IMG/VR virus record: IMGVR_UViG_3300025671_000189
Location: 1-37,434 of that record
Length of the DNA: 37,434 bases
Reading direction: 5' to 3' (one strand)
Origin: a virus
Below the pieces are notes generated by a model, which saw only the letters and a program-made list of their open reading frames with translations, was not told the origin of the DNA and did not search any database. Shown here in pieces: positions 17,843 through 37,270 of the stretch (its first letter is position 1; every line of letters begins with the position of its first letter). A program made the position numbers and the translations under genes.

Positions 17843-17850
17843 CAAATATA
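17843..17850 (-). promoter_or_regulatory. Candidate -7 promoter box of the connector-nozzle unit (TATATTTG)
   Basis: An exact TATATTTG on the minus strand, only 6 bases before the ATG at 17836. It directly follows the T-tract of the upstream terminator. A start site 5-7 bases past the box would fall at the ATG itself. Confidence 0.6.
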
Positions 17851-17858
17851 AAAAAGAA

Positions 17859-17879
17859 AAGGCCGCGCTTGGCGGCCTT
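17859..17879 (-). terminator. Rho-independent terminator after the 279-aa gene
   Basis: A perfect 8-bp stem AAGGCCGC / GCGGCCTT with loop CAAGC, followed on the minus strand by TTCTTTTTT. It lies 20 bases downstream of the stop at 17900 and ends the single-gene unit before the connector promoter. Confidence 0.85.
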
Positions 17880-18767: not shown

Positions 18768-20033
18768 CTAAAAAGAATAGTAGTTGTATCTAGCGAACAA
18801 ATCCTGGGCAATACGAGCCGCTTCTGAGCTACCGATATCAGACGGGATGACTCCAAACCTAGCAAGCTCCCCCTTCCACTCCGTTCCAGTACCGTCCCCA
18901 CCGAGGCGATCAACACTCAAGTCCCCGTCGGTTTTCTGTGTGCCCTCTACTTTTCTAGGGATGTATCCAATCACATCTCCTTGATAGTCATGGATATAGA
19001 TGTTAAAGTCTTTATCCCTTCTGATAACCCATACGTAGCAAATCTGCGCTCCTGCCTTGTTAGCACCTAGCGCCGCGACATCATCAAGCTTAGGGTCTTG
19101 TAATCGTGAAGCCTTGGTTCCAAAGTCTGTTGTGCTTGTCAATACGTTTGCTGGTGCAGCAGATCCCGTGTCGAAAGAAAAGGACATAACGTCCTTTGTA
19201 TCACCTCTACCGAAACCTTCAGCAGCGCTGGAACTGCTGCCATAGATAGGGTACATCTGTAACCGAGCAATCAATCCATACACCATGTACATCGTGTATT
19301 CACCAGCTACCGTCAGCTTATTATTAAGATGCAGTGCGTCAGACGCAGTGATTGTCACAGCATCCGTAGCGAGGTTGTTGTTTCTCGCCCTGCTATGCAG
19401 CGGATTACCTGTGTCCGCATTGATGTCATAGGTGGTCCCCCCAGTACCGAGGTTGGTCCAAGTATGGCTACCACCAACATTGCTTCCAATAGTGCCTGTA
19501 AAACCAGTGTCGTTATAATCAATAATCGGCTTAGTGCTTGCGGATGGGAACGCCACGCCCGCAATCGTAGTCGTTGCAGTACTTGTGATGTCCGTGTCGG
19601 CGGGATCATTACTGATGGTCTGCGTAGCCATAACTGTCGGCTGCTTGTACACCTTCGCTGCGATACTGTTTGCTGTACTCAGCTGTGCTTGCCTAAAGGT
19701 TGAGTTGCCCGTGACAGCGTCGAACACCATTGTATTCTTAATGGACTTGTCATTGGCAATGAAATCCAGTACGTCACGAATAAGGCTAAACTCCTCCCCC
19801 TCTGGACAAGCCACATCGATGCTGGTTTTACGCAGAGCCTCTTTTGTGCTTGTGCTATGCTGCTCATACACCCCTGCATCATTGAATACAAAGGTCACCT
19901 TGCCTGCGGTCCCCTTCATGTGCGAGACATGGCTGGCAGGGATAGCAATAACTGATAGGTTGTCACCAGTATTAGATACCTCCTCGCTAAAGACAGTCGG
20001 GTTTTCTCTACGGAACAGGAAAAACTTTGCCAT
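18768..20033 (-). CDS. Virion protein with LamG / concanavalin-like domain, 421 aa
   Basis: Residues 1-130 form a compact domain beginning MAKFFLFRRENPTVFSEEVS, likely the virion-anchoring part. From about 140 the sequence becomes Thr/Gly/Asn-rich beta structure. The C-terminus ends GELARFGVIPSDIGSSEAAR then IAQDLFARYN. That last element is the usual closing motif of LamG/concanavalin-like jelly rolls, where a final strand is followed by an acidic helix. Such domains bind glycans, so host-surface attachment or capsid decoration is plausible. It lies between the capsid genes and the connector genes and is transcribed alone from a TATTTTTG box 4 bases before the ATG. Function inferred. Confidence 0.55.
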   Translation of the reverse strand: MAKFFLFRRENPTVFSEEVSNTGDNLSVIAIPASHVSHMKGTAGKVTFVFNDAGVYEQHSTSTKEALRKTSIDVACPEGEEFSLIRDVLDFIANDKSIKNTMVFDAVTGNSTFRQAQLSTANSIAAKVYKQPTVMATQTISNDPADTDITSTATTTIAGVAFPSASTKPIIDYNDTGFTGTIGSNVGGSHTWTNLGTGGTTYDINADTGNPLHSRARNNNLATDAVTITASDALHLNNKLTVAGEYTMYMVYGLIARLQMYPIYGSSSSAAEGFGRGDTKDVMSFSFDTGSAAPANVLTSTTDFGTKASRLQDPKLDDVAALGANKAGAQICYVWVIRRDKDFNIYIHDYQGDVIGYIPRKVEGTQKTDGDLSVDRLGGDGTGTEWKGELARFGVIPSDIGSSEAARIAQDLFARYNYYSF

Positions 20034-20037
20034 CTCT

Positions 20038-20045
20038 CAAAAATA
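20038..20045 (-). promoter_or_regulatory. Candidate -7 promoter box of the LamG-like gene (TATTTTTG)
   Basis: Minus-strand TATTTTTG matches TAnnTTTG and lies 4 bases before the ATG at 20033 (TATTTTTGAGAGATG). The GAGAG could alternatively serve as a weak Shine-Dalgarno if transcription starts further upstream. An overlapping TTTATTTG lies at 20046-20053. Confidence 0.45.
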
Positions 20046-20052
20046 CAAATAA

Positions 20053-20078
20053 AAAAGGCCCCACTAGGGGGCCCTTTT
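20053..20078 (-). terminator. Rho-independent terminator closing the capsid unit
   Basis: On the minus strand AAAAGGGCCCCC, loop TAGT, then GGGGCCTTTTTT: a strong GC hairpin with a small bulge, followed by a T-tract. It lies about 20 bases past the stop at 20097 and immediately before the next promoter box. Confidence 0.82.
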
Positions 20079-25918: not shown

Positions 25919-25926
25919 CAAATATA
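25919..25926 (-). promoter_or_regulatory. Candidate -7 promoter box of the micro-gene cluster (TATATTTG)
   Basis: An exact TATATTTG followed by CATA and then the ATG at 25914. A start site five bases past the box falls on the A of ATG, so the message would be leaderless. The gap to the previous gene is just 16 bases and the box fills half of it. Confidence 0.6.
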
Positions 25927-29259: not shown

Positions 29260-31686
29260 TTATACCATATTGCTAAAGTCAAATCCTGAGGGCTGCTCCT
29301 CTAGTTCTGGGCGCTTTCCCTGGCGCTGGCTGATCAGCTTGCTTTGCTCAACAGCCTGCTTCTTCACGCGCTCGTCCTTGCGGTCATCCTTCTGCGTCTC
29401 AACCGCCTTCCTGCTCTGCACCTCTCCTTGCATAGTAGCGGCTTGAACTTGCAGTTTCATCTGCATAATCTCCTTTTCGAACTGATGCTTGATCTTAGCT
29501 AGTTCTAGATCAGCCATAGCTTTAGCCTGGATCACCTGGACGTCAGCTTGGGTCTGTGTAGCAATCTCTTGCTGACGACCTTGCATCTTGATAGCCTCTG
29601 CCTGCTGAGCCTGCTGAGCCTGCATCTGCTGCATCTGCATCTGCTGATCCTGTTGCTTTTTCATTCGCTTAGACCTGCGAATAATAAGTAGCCGTTCAGC
29701 CTGGTTGATGTCTTTTAGGTTTCGGATAGCCATTGCATCCTCAAGGTCTATTTCTTTTTGAGCTAGAGACATCTGAATGTTCTGCTCTAGGTATGCCTTG
29801 TCTTTATCCTCCATGTCCTTCATCACCTTCACCCCAAAATTGTACATTGGTAGGTCCGCGAAAGTGGCTAAGACATTCATGTTGCTATCCCCAATAGCAT
29901 TTCGGTAGGCCGTATGAATGGCTGATTCTTGCGGCAGGATCTGAAGACACTTAACTACATCCTCACAAACCTTGCGATAAAGCACCATGGCGGCATTGGT
30001 GATGTCGTATGTAGCGTTATTGCTGGCAGCGATAGCTTGCTGCTGGACACCAACCAGCGTATCCCCCTTCGGAGTTGACGCATCAGCCATTTCATTGATA
30101 CCCGTGGTATCGCGAATCATGCGCAGATAGTGGTTGTACAGCGCAATGAGCTCGTTAATATTACGGATGCTGTTGCCTATCTCTCGTACTGGCGGATTCT
30201 GGAAGCCACCCTCAGGGTTCTTACTTCGGTAGTAAAAGACCCCCGTCTGTTCGTAGATATCATGGAGATCCAAAGGTTGAAGCTCTCCGCCTTTACCAAG
30301 CTGAACATTCTCCAGACCTTCAATATCAATAACCAGGCCGTCTGGTTTCGCTTTGGCAATGGCTTGCTGAAGTTTCAAGTGTGTAAGCTGCAGCATATCC
30401 GCAAACCCCACACACCCGTCAACCATAGACTTAGGCATATTAGCCACCATATTCGTCGACACCACAGAATACGACATCCGCGCCCTGGTGACATCATGCA
30501 TGTTCTTTGGCGTGTTGTACTGCTTACCATAATTAATCAGATGATCTGTACCTAGAATGTACATACCCTGGTAGATACACTCAACATCCATAGAGTGGGG
30601 GGTGCGATCGTAAACGCTACCTTTCTTCTCTTTATATGCAAAGCCCTCGTAGAAGAAGTTTGTATTCCCATACTGATTCTCCTTCTCCTCGAAGTACATC
30701 GTGTCTACTGTCTTGAACTCAAACTCCAACACTTCAATAACATGGCCGCTGAAGTTCTGCTTCTGTAATCCACTGGTACTGTATGGGTGGTCAGGGTATT
30801 TGCTGGAGCTAGAACGCCGAGACTTTTTAAGCAGGTCTTTTAACTGCTGCTCGGTCATCTGATCCCCCGCCAAACGCTTCAGCTCAGCTAGAGTGATTTC
30901 CCGTACATGCCCCATGTACACAACATCATCAAAATTGGGATCTTGCGTATACCCATGAACAAAATGTACTGGGTCTACATAGTCGAGCTTGATACCGTAG
31001 CTAGGGTCATTACTCCGTTTCACTACAGCCATACCGCAACTAGTCAAGTCATTGACGCAACGCCGATAAACCCCCTCACTAAAATCGTTCCACTGCAAGG
31101 TCATTTCCGTTGCAACCTGCGCCGCTATCTCTGCATCTGTTTTGATGTTAGTGGCCATAAAAATTTCGGCCTCTTCAGTCGTCTCAGGTATTTGCTCCGC
31201 AGGTTCATCTAGAACGGGCTGCCCCATGCGCTGCTCCAGCTCCATAAACATGGGGCGCATAGCCACCTTGTTCTGCATGATATTCTTCTGCAGATTCTTT
31301 TCGCTAGAAGACAAAGGGTCTACTGCCTCTAGGTTCGGATACATATTCCTACCTAGAATCTTGTTGACCACAACACGAACAAACTTGGGTAGAACAGGGA
31401 CTGGGGTGTAGTCCAAATTCATCAAGGATCCCTCCCCGTTGTTTGGATCCGTAGTGTTTAGCAACTGCTTATAGATAGCAGTGTCCTGGGTTCCATTCGC
31501 ATAATCCCTGTTGCGAGCAAAGATATTCTTCCTACCCCCGAAAGTAGAAGTATTGTCCTGAGTGTTACCCCATTGCGCTTCGATTGCCTTAGCGTACTTC
31601 AGCCCATATTCTTTGGAAAGCTTCTCCTCTTGCGGCGCCAGTGGATCTGGGAAACCACCTGGATCACCTGACTTATTGTTGTACAT
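29260..31686 (-). CDS. Portal protein, 808 aa
   Basis: It occupies the position right after TerL. The core includes YTPVPVLPKFVRVVVNKILG, MSYSVVSTNMVANMPKSMVD and, near residues 528-560, RDTTGINEMADASTPKGDTL followed by VGVQQQAIAASNNAT. The last motif is typical of crAss-like and related podovirus portals (long alpha helix and tunnel loop). After about residue 670 there is an exceptional Gln/Met/Lys-rich coiled coil (QQDQQMQMQQMQAQQAQQ), then a charged helix to the end. The dodecamer forms the DNA entry vertex and binds TerL and ring proteins. A TATATTTG box lies 22 bases before the ATG. The long C-terminal barrel-like helix may contact packaged DNA or ejection proteins. Confidence 0.85.
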   Translation of the reverse strand: MYNNKSGDPGGFPDPLAPQEEKLSKEYGLKYAKAIEAQWGNTQDNTSTFGGRKNIFARNRDYANGTQDTAIYKQLLNTTDPNNGEGSLMNLDYTPVPVLPKFVRVVVNKILGRNMYPNLEAVDPLSSSEKNLQKNIMQNKVAMRPMFMELEQRMGQPVLDEPAEQIPETTEEAEIFMATNIKTDAEIAAQVATEMTLQWNDFSEGVYRRCVNDLTSCGMAVVKRSNDPSYGIKLDYVDPVHFVHGYTQDPNFDDVVYMGHVREITLAELKRLAGDQMTEQQLKDLLKKSRRSSSSKYPDHPYSTSGLQKQNFSGHVIEVLEFEFKTVDTMYFEEKENQYGNTNFFYEGFAYKEKKGSVYDRTPHSMDVECIYQGMYILGTDHLINYGKQYNTPKNMHDVTRARMSYSVVSTNMVANMPKSMVDGCVGFADMLQLTHLKLQQAIAKAKPDGLVIDIEGLENVQLGKGGELQPLDLHDIYEQTGVFYYRSKNPEGGFQNPPVREIGNSIRNINELIALYNHYLRMIRDTTGINEMADASTPKGDTLVGVQQQAIAASNNATYDITNAAMVLYRKVCEDVVKCLQILPQESAIHTAYRNAIGDSNMNVLATFADLPMYNFGVKVMKDMEDKDKAYLEQNIQMSLAQKEIDLEDAMAIRNLKDINQAERLLIIRRSKRMKKQQDQQMQMQQMQAQQAQQAEAIKMQGRQQEIATQTQADVQVIQAKAMADLELAKIKHQFEKEIMQMKLQVQAATMQGEVQSRKAVETQKDDRKDERVKKQAVEQSKLISQRQGKRPELEEQPSGFDFSNMV

Positions 31687-31722: not shown

Positions 31723-33840
31723 TCATCCGCGCACCTTATAACGCCTAAAAAAGCGCTTCTCGTCAAATTTAGAGTCTTGTTTTTTCTGCTTGACTTTTTG
31801 TGCCGCTAATAATGCTAAGCCAGAGCTAATGGTAAGGTCGAATCGCGTCCTGTTATTGATGTCGTAGCCAATCCAGTCCTCCAGGGTTTTATTGAAATAC
31901 ATTGCCCCCATCTCCCCAGTCTCTCTATTAACGCCAACATGGTTGTGGATGTAGGCCTCGATAGCCTGGGCGTGGGACTGTATTACATCTTGAGAATTAG
32001 ACGGGATACCCTTCGTCTTTACCTTGATGTTTGTGTTGGGGGCAGATAGGTGCTTAGGCCTATCCAAAAGATACCCATCATATCCACGTTGCTCAAAGTA
32101 CCGCGCAATACCATACTTGTTGTTCTCTATCAGTATCGGGTATCCGTAGAAGACTGCGGCCATAAGTACGTCTTCATAAAAGATCGAAGCCAGCGGAGGA
32201 CGGGAAGCGTACTCCAACACAAACATATTAGCAGGAGCATCCATGCTAAACTTATTGTATAAGTGCAATGCTCCTTTAGATCCTCTGCCGTCAACAGTGG
32301 CGTCAAGATCATAACTATCCACGCCGCCACAACCAAGATGTGTATTAGGCGCCACCCTTTTGTTTCTTTCATATACTTTCAAATTACGCTGCCCAGACTC
32401 TGGCATCCACGCCACCTTAAACCTACCCTTAGGGTCTGGAGTGAACACAACCTCAGTATCCTTTACACCACCTTTCCATGTGAAGCTACCCGTCACCACA
32501 GGGTTTGGGAATAGATCATCGTTGTGTTCTATCTGCTCATAGATCTGGCCGATATTAAACAGACTAGCCTCAATGCTATCCCTAAAAGCTTCGTCTGTAG
32601 TAAATGGGAACTGCCTTATGATCTCATTCAGCTCACTAGGATCATCGCGCAAACTATCCCTCTCGTTCTTCAAGAAGGTCTTCGCCCCCATGTGTATCCA
32701 CTCCCCATCAATACCTTCAACTGGCTCCTTTGGGTCGTCCACTACGGGGTGCCCGTACAGATCAAAGAACCCCTCTAGAGAGTCGTGGGCTGGGATGAAC
32801 AGCCGATACAACCCAGACCTAGTCCTCCCATTCTTGTTCCGCTCCTGAGGATCCGAGTCCGCCCATAAATCTTTGTACTCGCTTCCGCCTTTCCCCATTG
32901 GATTCACGGTGCTTCCGACCATGGCCTTGCCTACGACCTTCCGACCAACGATCAAACATGTCCGCTGGATCCTCCAGGCCTCTCTTATGTCTGTTGGTTT
33001 TTCCCATTTGCCTGCCTCATCTAAGTATAGCAGGTGAAGTTTCTCCCCGTCGTATGCGTTGTTTGTGGTGTTCTTCCAATTGATCACCGTATTCAAGGCG
33101 TCACCAACCTGTGCTGTTTTGTTTTTCTTCGTGATCTTCTTCGATGGTTCTCGGAACGCCAACTCCATACGGGGATTCGTTGTACCATCCTGAATAGGCT
33201 TGAAGAAGAATGGGTACTTGCGGAACATGTTGACCACCTTCTTCATGAAGATGTTCTCTTGAGCGTCCTTACCCGTCTTACTCTGAATGCCTATCAGCTT
33301 GTCCTTGACCTGCGTAGCTTCATCTACGATGACAGAAGAGCATATGTTGGTGTATCCTGATCTACGGCATTTGGTATATAGCTGTCCGATACAACGAGGG
33401 TCCGCCTCACACGCAGCCAAATGTAAGAAAATATCTCTCTGGAAATCAAGGTAGTAAGGGGCACCGATGTCCAGCTGCCCCCACTGCAGCATCATATAGT
33501 GACGACCCGTGATGTATGTAGCATCACCTCGATTATAAAACCAAACGCCCTCACGCCTACGCCGAAACTCCTCCTCGATGTATGGACGAAACTTTTCTCT
33601 GAACTCCCTCGGCATCTCCGCCCACTCATCCATAGAACGTATACGCGATAACTCCTTGGGAAGATCAACGCGCCGCCAATGCTGATCAGCAATGGGAAGA
33701 CCATGGAAGAGGATGTCTCGGACCTTAGGCGCCTTGGGTAAGACAATGACAATCCCACCGACCTCGATGTGGTCGCCCAGCGTACCGTTGGCACAAATCG
33801 CCACGCCCTGTTCATCATATCCCTCTACCTTAACTAGCAT
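31723..33840 (-). CDS. terL: Terminase large subunit, 705 aa
   Basis: The packaging motor ATPase and nuclease. Residues 99-120 (VWFYNRGDATYITGRHYMML) form the pre-ATPase motif of crAss-type terminases. A Walker A-like loop TKCRRSGYT lies at 156-164, Walker B LHLLYLDEAG at 268-277 (D-E acidic pair) and the coupling motif VGSTVNP at 308-314. The RNase H-like nuclease shows GGVDSYDLD at 505-513, IENN at 571-574 and RFDLTISSGLALLA at 666-679. It ends in a basic tail. It works with the portal to pump and cut the genome concatemer. No small terminase was recognised nearby; the 95-112-residue upstream proteins are candidates by size only. The start overlaps the glycosyltransferase-like gene (TAATG). 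Confidence 0.92.
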   Translation of the reverse strand: MLVKVEGYDEQGVAICANGTLGDHIEVGGIVIVLPKAPKVRDILFHGLPIADQHWRRVDLPKELSRIRSMDEWAEMPREFREKFRPYIEEEFRRRREGVWFYNRGDATYITGRHYMMLQWGQLDIGAPYYLDFQRDIFLHLAACEADPRCIGQLYTKCRRSGYTNICSSVIVDEATQVKDKLIGIQSKTGKDAQENIFMKKVVNMFRKYPFFFKPIQDGTTNPRMELAFREPSKKITKKNKTAQVGDALNTVINWKNTTNNAYDGEKLHLLYLDEAGKWEKPTDIREAWRIQRTCLIVGRKVVGKAMVGSTVNPMGKGGSEYKDLWADSDPQERNKNGRTRSGLYRLFIPAHDSLEGFFDLYGHPVVDDPKEPVEGIDGEWIHMGAKTFLKNERDSLRDDPSELNEIIRQFPFTTDEAFRDSIEASLFNIGQIYEQIEHNDDLFPNPVVTGSFTWKGGVKDTEVVFTPDPKGRFKVAWMPESGQRNLKVYERNKRVAPNTHLGCGGVDSYDLDATVDGRGSKGALHLYNKFSMDAPANMFVLEYASRPPLASIFYEDVLMAAVFYGYPILIENNKYGIARYFEQRGYDGYLLDRPKHLSAPNTNIKVKTKGIPSNSQDVIQSHAQAIEAYIHNHVGVNRETGEMGAMYFNKTLEDWIGYDINNRTRFDLTISSGLALLAAQKVKQKKQDSKFDEKRFFRRYKVRG

Positions 33841-34864: not shown

Positions 34865-35151
34865 TTTGAAAATCTTTCTGCAAAACCACCAGAGTAATCC
34901 TTATCCTCTGTCATGGTTCCGCTCAAAGTAAGATCTTTCATCATCTGCTCCAGCCGCTGTCTTTCAACAAGAAGTTCTTTACAATCTATAGCCGTCTGCT
35001 TAATAGACTGAAGCTCAGCCTTTCTAGCGCTACCATTGATCTCCTTGTCTACAGGCTTTTTGATTTCCTCAATCATATTGTTGATAGCTACCTCCATAGA
35101 AGCCATCAACCGACGAGCAGCATCAATCGTGGTGAATTGCTTTCTGGACAT
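34861..35151 (-). CDS. Small helical protein, 96 aa
   Basis: The ATG at 35151 (MSRKQFTTIDAARRLMASME) is chosen; longer extensions upstream only read antisense-like sequence through the GroES-like gene. The protein is largely helical and coiled-coil-like: VAINNMIEEIKKPVDKEING, then ARKAELQSIKQTAIDCKELL, then VERQRLEQMMKDLTLSG, with an acidic, flexible end. It overlaps the GroES-like gene by 29 bases in another frame and the next gene by 4 (ATGA). Function unknown; size and helical character are compatible with a small terminase-like oligomer, which is only a suggestion. Confidence 0.5.
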   Translation of the reverse strand: MSRKQFTTIDAARRLMASMEVAINNMIEEIKKPVDKEINGSARKAELQSIKQTAIDCKELLVERQRLEQMMKDLTLSGTMTEDKDYSGGFAERFSK

Positions 35152-35719
35152 ACAGTAAGTCTTCGGTTCGTACTCGGTACATCGTCTCGTCGTTGACCTT
35201 AAAATCGTAACGCAGCTTGCTAGGGAAAACAACCACATCACCCTCTTCAATCCCCAGGTCCTTGTGCATATACGTTCGATACGCAAGAACTCCACGATCT
35301 GGATCAGCATCCTTTAGTCGCACCTCTGTCCACAGCTGCGTGCGATCCACTATCTCCTCCTGGTGTGGGCGAAGGATAGACCACATAGACAATGGTATGA
35401 CATCATCCTCACCTTTCGGGGTGTACGCAAAAGCATGGCAGTTGATGGTGACATCAGGATCGTAGCTTACCAAGTACTCCCCCTCCCTGTCTGCAAAAGG
35501 CATCCCCCCATTGATGACCACCAAATGATGGAAGTACAATGTGTCCCCTACTTTGACAGGGGTGTCGTACTTCTTCGGTACCGACACCACCTCCCCTTCA
35601 CACACCCTATGTTCAAACTCGTTGAACTTAGTCTCCATGTAGATATTCTGGTCACCCAGCTTAATCTCGTCTTGCAGCAGCTTGTCTAGCTTCACCACAA
35701 AGTAATGCAGCATATCCAT
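35123..35719 (-). CDS. GroES-like co-chaperonin (gp31-type), 198 aa
   Basis: The middle contains EFEHRVCEGEVVSVPKKYDT followed by PVKVGDTLYFHHLVVINGG, the GroES pattern (G-x-VVxVP ... VKVGDxVxF). FADREGEYLVSYDPDVTINC HAFAY and a separate C-terminal GDVVVFPSKLRYDFKV followed by NDETMYRVRTEDLLYV correspond to the closing GroES strands (I-x-V-x-DxxYxRVRxxDILA). It is about twice the length of host GroES because of an inserted segment near 75-130, as in T4 gp31 and phage relatives. It probably caps host GroEL to fold the major capsid protein. Starts on the previous stop (TAATG). Confidence 0.66.
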   Translation of the reverse strand: MDMLHYFVVKLDKLLQDEIKLGDQNIYMETKFNEFEHRVCEGEVVSVPKKYDTPVKVGDTLYFHHLVVINGGMPFADREGEYLVSYDPDVTINCHAFAYTPKGEDDVIPLSMWSILRPHQEEIVDRTQLWTEVRLKDADPDRGVLAYRTYMHKDLGIEEGDVVVFPSKLRYDFKVNDETMYRVRTEDLLYVQKAIHHD

Positions 35720-35955
35720 TAGAAATTCAAATCAAACTCAAGTAAACACGGGAGACCATCGATCGCCTTCCAGAGAGACTGACCCCCATCGACACCGATG
35801 TAGATTAAGTACCTACTGCGACCATACCTATGCAGATGCTCCTCGTCTAAGACGATCGTCGATACACTCCCATCACCTACGCGCATACCTAGGTAATATG
35901 CCATCGCGTCCTTTGGGTTCGGACCGATTATGATTTTTCTGATTATTCCATTCAT
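35719..35955 (-). CDS. Small phage protein, 78 aa
   Basis: The ATG at 35955 forms a TGATG overlap with the previous stop; the reading frame extends three codons upstream through a TTG, which is less likely. The sequence MNGIIRKIIIGPNPKDAMAY, then YLGMRVGDGSVSTIVLDEEH, then RYGRSRYLIYIGVDGGQSLW and KAIDGLPCLLEFDLNF suggests a small alpha/beta domain. A family with this I-x-IGPNPKDAMAYY-x-G pattern is known to me only as hypothetical phage proteins. It precedes the GroES-like gene in the same operon and may be functionally linked to it. Confidence 0.52.
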   Translation of the reverse strand: MNGIIRKIIIGPNPKDAMAYYLGMRVGDGSVSTIVLDEEHLHRYGRSRYLIYIGVDGGQSLWKAIDGLPCLLEFDLNF

Positions 35956-36293
35956 CAATTGCAAGATGGGTCAAACCCGTCTTGCTCGTTAAGACCATCT
36001 ATGATCTCTTTGTACCAGTTTTCACTATCGAATTCAACATCCTCCTCTGCAGGGAAGACATACGAGAACCGCAAAAAATCGAACACCTCATCCAAAACAT
36101 CCTCGCTCTCTACATCTAGAGAGAACACCGCTTTCAAAACTGGGTCATCAAATTCATCTGTAGACAACATGCCAGTGAGCATCACGTTGATCACCTGCCC
36201 TTGCAGGTCATACTTATTCACCAGCATATCCACTATCTTGTGAACCTTCTGCATCTCCACTAGAAACAACTCCTTTCGCGTCAGATCGTCCAT
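35955..36293 (-). CDS. Acidic helical protein, first gene of the packaging operon, 112 aa
   Basis: I place the start at the ATG at 36293 (MDDLTRKELFLVEMQKVHKI). Longer versions read into an opposite-strand gene. It is acidic and helical (VDMLVNKYDLQGQVINVMLT; VESEDVLDEVFDFLRFSYVF) with a tail rich in Asp/Glu. It was not recognised. It is preceded by a TATCTTTG box about 46 bases upstream, inside the plus-strand gene. Its start codon and that of the plus-strand gene share a single CATG palindrome. It ends in TGATG overlap with the next gene. As leader of the operon that ends in TerL it may act in packaging; no direct evidence. Confidence 0.55.
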   Translation of the reverse strand: MDDLTRKELFLVEMQKVHKIVDMLVNKYDLQGQVINVMLTGMLSTDEFDDPVLKAVFSLDVESEDVLDEVFDFLRFSYVFPAEEDVEFDSENWYKEIIDGLNEQDGFDPSCN

Positions 36294-36714
36294 GCCAGCT
36301 TCCAAAAAAAAGATATTTCGAGAGCATTCTCGATTACAACAAAGATACGTAAACAAGAACCACCTCAAGAACCTGAGGTCCAGTCTGTTACGCTTCCAGG
36401 ACAAGTACGATCTATTTCAAAAAGAGATGTACTTTTTACTGTGGGCATACGACCTGGAGTTCTGGACTCTCAAGTACGCTCAGGAAGAGTATGGGTACAG
36501 CAAAAAGAAATTGGAGGACACCATCGTATACCCCCTGCAGAGAGAAGGGTACATACACAAAGTGTTTGATAAGCTTACCCCCTCCGATGTCAGGGAGGAT
36601 CACCTCTTCAGAGAAGAGACCAAGTACAACTACAGGGTGCGATACGCCTTAACGCAAAAGGCTAGGCTTATGGTGCAGCGGTTCTACAACGAGCTTAGCC
36701 CAAAGACAACTTGA
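36292..36714 (+). CDS. Winged-helix (MarR-like) regulator candidate, 140 aa
   Basis: This is the only plus-strand gene. The N-terminal 40 residues are basic (MPASKKKIFREHSRLQQRYV). The remainder follows the winged-helix pattern: LFQKEMYFLLWAYDLEFWTL, then YAQEEYGYSKKKLEDTIVYP and LQREGYIHKVFDKL, a loop, then YRVRYALTQKARLMVQRFYN. The element LTQKA/GR-x(2)-VQRFY is common in small phage proteins that I associate with MarR-like folds. It likely binds DNA and regulates phage transcription. It overlaps the next convergent gene by 20 bases and contains the promoter box of the divergent packaging operon within its 5' coding part. The ATG at 36292 is tentative; a shorter start at 36425 would begin at MYFLLW. 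Confidence 0.68.
   Translation: MPASKKKIFREHSRLQQRYVNKNHLKNLRSSLLRFQDKYDLFQKEMYFLLWAYDLEFWTLKYAQEEYGYSKKKLEDTIVYPLQREGYIHKVFDKLTPSDVREDHLFREETKYNYRVRYALTQKARLMVQRFYNELSPKTT
36340..36347 (-). promoter_or_regulatory. Candidate -7 promoter box of the packaging operon (TATCTTTG)
   Basis: Minus-strand TATCTTTG matches TAnnTTTG, with a TTG 18 bases upstream (36366-36368) at the expected -33 spacing. It lies 46 bases before the ATG at 36293 and entirely within the plus-strand gene. Confidence 0.5.
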
Positions 36715-37270
36715 CGTCTTTCATATAATAAGACTCTCCAGCTATAGGGAAGTTGAAAAACCGATCCCACTCGTACAGGTAGAAGAATGAACTAAACATA
36801 CCTATCGTCTCCCCGCTTACGTCAATGGTGGTCCAAGTTTGGTCCTGCAGCGTAGTTTGGAATTTATCCTGCTCTGTAGTCCCAAAGGAAGTAGTGAATG
36901 TAATCTGAGTTCTACTGGAGTCAAGAATGCAGTACAACTTGGCTTGCACCCTCCACTTGGTATAGTCTGCAAAGTTGATGAAGGTGCTGCCGCCGTCAGG
37001 CACCAAAGCACTACTAGGGGCCCGCCACTGACACGTATCTGTCTGGGTTGCGTTTACCACGAGCTTCGCGTAGTCCGTCTCGCCATCCAAAGCAGCCGTT
37101 TCAAAACTTAGCGAAGGTTGAGTTGTCGACCAAGAATTCGGTCGGAAGCCTAAAGTAGCACTTATGAGATTAGCGTCGTTTTCCCACGTCCTGAACGTCG
37201 TGTATGGACTTACTACTTCTGGAACCGCTCCTCCACGATCCAAACTCGCACCAAGGCCGAGGCTTGGCAT
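36695..37270 (-). CDS. Jelly-roll-like virion protein, 191 aa
   Basis: The start MPSLGLGASLDRGGAVPEVV resembles the short virion-docking leader (LGLG-x(2)-x-RGG) found in phage structural proteins. The rest is a beta-sandwich of carbohydrate-binding type: LSFETAALDGETDYAKLVVN, then STFINFADYTKWRVQAKLYC, then TQITFTTSFGTTEQDKFQTT, then LQDQTWTTIDVSGETIGMFS, and closing YYMKDVKLSLG. Alternating strands with W-x-TIDVSG are typical of CBM-like modules. It is likely a fibre or receptor-binding accessory. It starts on the stop of the upstream small gene (TAATG) and converges with the plus-strand gene, overlapping its 3' end by 20 bases. Confidence 0.6.
   Translation of the reverse strand: MPSLGLGASLDRGGAVPEVVSPYTTFRTWENDANLISATLGFRPNSWSTTQPSLSFETAALDGETDYAKLVVNATQTDTCQWRAPSSALVPDGGSTFINFADYTKWRVQAKLYCILDSSRTQITFTTSFGTTEQDKFQTTLQDQTWTTIDVSGETIGMFSSFFYLYEWDRFFNFPIAGESYYMKDVKLSLG

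Follow-up and report, generated by a model that had tools for sequence, protein, structure and literature searches.

A predicted packaging-operon promoter embedded antisense in the opening codons of a regulator-like gene in uncultured Bacteroidota phages

Introduction

Repressors of the MarR family have divergent, autoregulated promoters. In the Bacteroidota, the sigma-A -7 element is TAnnTTTG, and in F. johnsoniae transcription starts 4–5 nt past this box and the -33 element (TTG or TTTG) is weak (PMC6847099). Noncontiguous operons, including ith/tha of S. aureus phage 80alpha, have a nested antisense gene, and mutually exclusive expression has been proposed for them (PMC11087260). Coliphage 186, a temperate phage with a CI repressor, has the convergent promoters pR and pL (PMC6593788).

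Here we describe a junction of two head-to-head genes in IMG/VR virus record IMGVR_UViG_3300025671_000189 (positions 1–37,434; 37,434 bases), the whole stretch of DNA analyzed and hereafter called the window, which resembles each of these systems in part. Like the Bacteroidota sigma-A promoter described in F. johnsoniae (PMC6847099), it has an exact -7 box in which neither free position is a G, and a weak or absent -33 element; however, this box is placed antisense within the coding sequence of a protein and is extended by a conserved TTTACG. As in a noncontiguous operon, a lone gene that would be transcribed separately, in the antisense direction, is nested between co-oriented genes, but here the nested gene is regulator-like and belongs to the structural-gene cluster of phages in which we found no integrase. 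Face-to-face promoters with overlapping 5′ transcripts, as in coliphage 186, are predicted in about half of the relatives of the window, whereas here the promoters would lie inside opposing coding sequences and the window has one of the two boxes; because of this single box and the lack of an integrase in 21 records, we did not class the junction with the 186-type switch. The predicted winged-helix fold of the nested gene product and an inverted repeat near the start sites recall the MarR repressors, although the protein has no MarR HMM match and the sequence of the repeat differs between lineages. We found no such arrangement described for Bacteroidota or crAss-like phages in the open-licence literature.

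The Junction and Its Gene Neighborhood

The plus-strand gene (36292..36714, 140 aa) stands alone on its strand and starts head to head with a minus-strand operon, whose first gene (35955..36293, 112 aa, stop codon at 35955–35957) is followed by a second of ~78 aa (35719..35955) that overlaps the stop of the first, and by a GroES-like gene of the packaging operon (phrog_13932; 35123..35719, ~195 aa). Also on the minus strand, PHROG matches identified the terminase large subunit (phrog_6681; 31723..33840) and the portal protein (phrog_6547; 29260..31686). On the other side of the plus gene, a convergent minus-strand gene (36695..37270) overlaps its 3′ end by 20 nt (36695–36714), which leaves no space for a terminator. 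The terminase is 42–49% identical to those of an uncultured podovirus from Manatee Spring and of Flavobacterium phages, and its remaining named matches were mainly to Cellulophaga and further Bacteroidota phages; a Bacteroidota host, and hence a TAnnTTTG-type promoter, was therefore expected. In G001 (61 kb), which is the nearest of the long relatives, the plus strand has the genes for replication (primase-helicase, Sak-like annealing protein and exonuclease) and the minus strand a large structural-gene cluster, within which the plus gene stands alone. As no tyrosine or serine integrase (PF00589, PF00239) was found in any of 21 records of 37–65 kb, a lysogeny-type switch is unlikely and was rejected. 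Judged by size, the GroES-like gene occupies the same place in relatives, and in a Flavobacterium elemo phage, too, a GroES-annotated gene is the neighbor of the terminase.

An earlier note on this DNA had taken the plus gene product to be a winged helix, and the structure model (pLDDT 79.6) bears this out, nearly all of its top Foldseek matches in the PDB being MarR-type proteins (TM 0.43–0.58, best E-value 1.4e-3). The MarR Pfam profile gave no match in 38 members of the plus-protein family, just stray weak winged-helix matches being found; by this model, which is of moderate quality, the protein has a MarR-like winged-helix fold, without a MarR family HMM match. Our searches with the minus protein, which is small (~90–116 aa in relatives) and acidic, returned no match to a known family, relative or fold. 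A search of a phage collection gave no credible match to a named phage for either junction protein. The plus gene has relatives on at least 595 viral contigs, and its only match among sequenced cellular genome contigs was a fragment, the C-terminal half of the gene at the end of a 3,294-base contig (L164, DNHN01000125.1) of a Bacteroidetes metagenome-assembled genome.

For the comparison of relatives, in which ATG alone was taken as a gene start, 296 loci yielded 294 coding sequences (127 unique), which fell into 75 lineages below 90% protein identity. The head-to-head partner, with the minus gene on the left, was found in all 75 lineages, and in 70 of the 75 the next gene on the right is also on the minus strand and usually overlaps the 3′ end of the plus gene; because of this right-hand neighbor we regard the plus gene as a nested antisense gene. 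Comparing this junction in related phages, which the earlier note had put forward as a check, thus showed that both the gene pair (75/75) and the embedded box described below (65/75) are conserved. The same cannot be said of the CATG common to both start codons (36291..36294; plus ATG at 36292–36294, minus ATG at 36293–36291): it is present in the window exactly as had been claimed, but is shared by only 16 of the 75 lineages, with nine changes on the tree, and the spacing of the two start codons varies between -47 and +1, with 23 different values and 38 changes on the tree. We therefore rejected the CATG as a functional element and consider it incidental.

A -7 Box Antisense to the Regulator-Like Gene

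Before start codons, the density of TAnnTTTG was 4.84/kb in intergenic and 3.07/kb in antisense-coding DNA, compared with 0.3–0.4/kb in other coding DNA, and this contrast upstream of starts leads us to treat TAnnTTTG as a promoter signal in these phages. The junction has such a box, TATCTTTG, on the minus strand at 36347–36340, antisense to codons 17–19 of the plus gene; it is of the host type, fitting TAHHTTTG in the orientation of the operon, and directly upstream of it is the conserved TTTACG extension (36348..36353, minus strand; codons 19–21, TAC GTA AAn). Following the F. johnsoniae rule (PMC6847099), transcription of the operon is predicted to start at 36334..36335 on the minus strand, which would give the transcript a leader of ~42 nt. 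Across relatives the conserved form of the box is TTTACGTAYCTTTG (TTTACG-TAYCTTTG, minus strand), and the remaining TAnnTTTG boxes of the same cluster have another form, mostly TATATTTG; late timing of the junction box, as the earlier note had it, is thus no more than a possibility. Since TAnnTTTG is not enriched in the window alone (19 found versus 16.9 expected, sd 4.5), the weight of the junction box rests on comparison.

Synonymous shuffling of the plus gene placed the box in nucleotides 10–99 in 31 lineages (sd 3.8) and the extended motif in 4.4 (sd 2.0), as against 65 and 39 of the 75 lineages observed, in tests that treat the lineages as independent although they are related, a point that the tree counts and within-gene controls answer in part. 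Elsewhere in the plus gene the same box was rarer than by chance (5/75 versus 9.4 under synonymous shuffling). Pairwise codon identity is raised at codons 17–21 (CAA AGR TAC GTA AAA) relative to the rest of the gene, and these codons have the fewest synonymous changes on the tree (ranks 1/63, 1/32, 2/63, 1/25, and 4/63 by degeneracy class). Gln17 is CAA in 60 of 61 cases and Arg18 is AGR in 56 of 57, though arginine elsewhere in the plus gene is freely encoded by CGN; at Arg18 only AGR preserves TTTG on the opposite strand. Where lineages differ, it is the free positions that change (TATC, TACC, TAAC, TATT), with TA and TTTG kept. In two lineages (L016 and L023) the box with an ACG extension has been relocated to +41, in other codons and still antisense, and in a third (L015) a box precedes the minus ATG by 5 nt, relocations that argue for a function at the DNA level. 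The claim of the earlier note that the box lies inside the opposing regulator-like gene is well borne out by its exact coordinates and by these counts, and we conclude that the operon promoter is very probably embedded antisense in the codons of the plus gene and kept by selection on the DNA beyond the needs of the protein.

The exact minus box is absent in 10 of the 75 lineages, several of which have one-mismatch forms, whereas one clade among them (L044, L072, and their kin) has none. L044, L072, L092, L165, L166, and L168 have the head-to-head pair with no TAnnTTTG in the first codons of the plus gene. A TTG 18 nt upstream of the TATCTTTG box (36368–36366, minus strand), which with the box falls within plus-gene codons 17–26, had been proposed as the -33 element; it is present in the window but not conserved, the Leu25 codon being free to vary with no synonymous constraint, and we rejected it as incidental, in agreement with the weakness of the -33 element in F. 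johnsoniae (PMC6847099). The 14-mer made up of box and extension occurs about once per 60-kb genome and was rejected as a general late promoter, since it is all but confined to the junction. Of the second near-matches, the few that we looked at fall within other coding DNA or at sites of an unrelated kind; e.g., in three genomes a near-copy with one mismatch is on the sense strand of a 145–147 aa gene (L300:2757, L301:4721, and L302:4579).

A Reverse Box and an Inverted Repeat

About half of the relatives have a plus-strand TAYCTTTR box inside or beside the start of the minus gene, mostly 25–31 nt before the plus ATG. It was found within the minus gene in 28 of the 75 lineages, versus 7.5 (sd 2.2) expected from synonymous shuffling, and upstream of the plus ATG, variants included, in 38 of the 75. 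The minus-gene codons for Tyr-Lys-Asp (TAC AAA GAT), which read ATCTTTGTA on the plus strand and together with the next codon TATCTTTG, are the most synonymously constrained of its two-fold codons (ranks 3, 1, and 2 of 58), and the lysine is AAA in 26/26 with zero synonymous changes. In lineages with both boxes, the predicted starts face each other ~70 nt apart. The clade of the window itself (L001, L005, L007, and L012) has no recognizable plus-strand TAnnTTTG box.

At 36318..36333, in plus-gene codons 9–14, lies the inverted repeat TCGAGA-GCAT-TCTCGA (plus strand), a candidate operator or 5′ stem-loop. Among the relatives, inverted repeats peak at plus-gene codons 8–13 (z 10.8; 23 stems of at least 6 versus an expected 2.8); none of the 44 positions scanned scored higher, and the next separate peak was 5.8. 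Their sequence and register differ between lineages, and with G-U pairs allowed they fit the minus strand slightly better than the plus strand. Folding of the leader RNA was ordinary (z 0.02 for the window, with the group value within the control range), and a structured leader RNA was set aside as unsupported by folding energy. The repeat may serve the regulator as an operator, or the operon transcript may begin with it as a short 5′ stem-loop.

Discussion

As the predicted operon promoter lies inside the regulator-like gene, transcription of that gene must run head-on through it, a consequence drawn in the earlier note and supported by the position of the box and its conservation in relatives; and since hardly any intergenic DNA separates the two head-to-head starts, the 5′ ends of both transcripts would overlap. 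RNA polymerase reading the regulator gene would pass over the operon promoter and lower its firing, and transcription of the operon, together with read-through from the right-hand minus-strand genes, would run antisense through the regulator, with opposite-phase expression of regulator and operon during lytic infection as the result. Where the start of the minus gene has a plus-strand box of the host type at or within it, as in about half of the lineages, this box would serve the regulator, giving face-to-face promoters and interference that would be reciprocal. The MarR-like protein might bind the inverted repeat at plus-gene codons 8–14, between the two start sites, and so set the direction of the switch. 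We consider interference between regulator and operon transcription likely, and the junction is probably a dual-coded regulatory node in which it takes place; action of the MarR-like protein at the inverted repeat is a guess to which we give less than even weight. More speculative still, the whole switch could be contained in ~100 bp with almost no non-coding DNA, having two face-to-face host-type promoters, each in the opening codons of the opposing gene, and the regulator's operator inside its own coding sequence, and timing the packaging genes of strictly lytic phages.

The conservation at codons 17–21 would be equally expected of an ordinary operon promoter with no switch attached. If the promoter lay in the neighboring gene simply because the genes abut, and selection kept it there with no interference and with a plus gene whose job is unrelated, conservation of the minus box would need nothing further, and the variable spacing between the two starts and the lack of a facing promoter in the clade of the window would fit as well. 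Such economical packing leaves aside the reciprocal box that about half of the lineages have kept where the minus gene starts, and the inverted repeat between the two boxes, and a winged-helix product in a conserved nested antisense position is what a regulatory arrangement would be expected to have; we regard it as possible, though doubtful. It is quite improbable, in our judgment, that the 14-mer is instead a binding site for a host or phage regulator, or a phage-specific promoter rather than one for host sigma-A, its likeness to TAnnTTTG being partly coincidence. That conservation reaches past the -7 box to TTTACG, unlike in the intergenic boxes of the same phages, and that the motif occurs about once per genome would suit such a site, but the fit to TAHHTTTG in the operon's orientation is exact, the variants between lineages spare TA and TTTG, and in L015, L016, and L023 the box has moved to a new position with other codons.

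Read as a dual-coded node, the junction is a clear and statistically testable case of a predicted promoter and a protein encoded by the same DNA letters on opposite strands, and kept in no fewer than 65 of the 75 phage lineages. Gene timing has received little study in Bacteroidota phages, and the junction offers a natural system in which transcriptional interference could readily be measured in them; it also gives a way into an abundant, uncharacterized phage gene pair in a large group of uncultured Bacteroidota viruses.

Other TAnnTTTG boxes of these phages lie close to start codons. In the window and 41 relatives we found 49 sites, mostly TATATTTG, exactly 4 or 5 nt before the ATG of an ORF (39 at 4 nt and 10 at 5 nt, compared with 0–4 for scrambled control motifs at those distances), in 15 protein families; examples in the window are at 25919–25926 and 20038–20045 (minus strand). 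By the F. johnsoniae start rule these boxes would give leaderless mRNAs, a class that makes up only 5.5% of F. psychrophilum mRNAs (PMC9723704). Before two minus-strand genes of the window (20033–20060 and 17845–17870), a GC-rich hairpin resembling a terminator, T run included, is immediately followed by a TAnnTTTG box, a pairing that suggests stop-and-restart promoters within the structural cluster.
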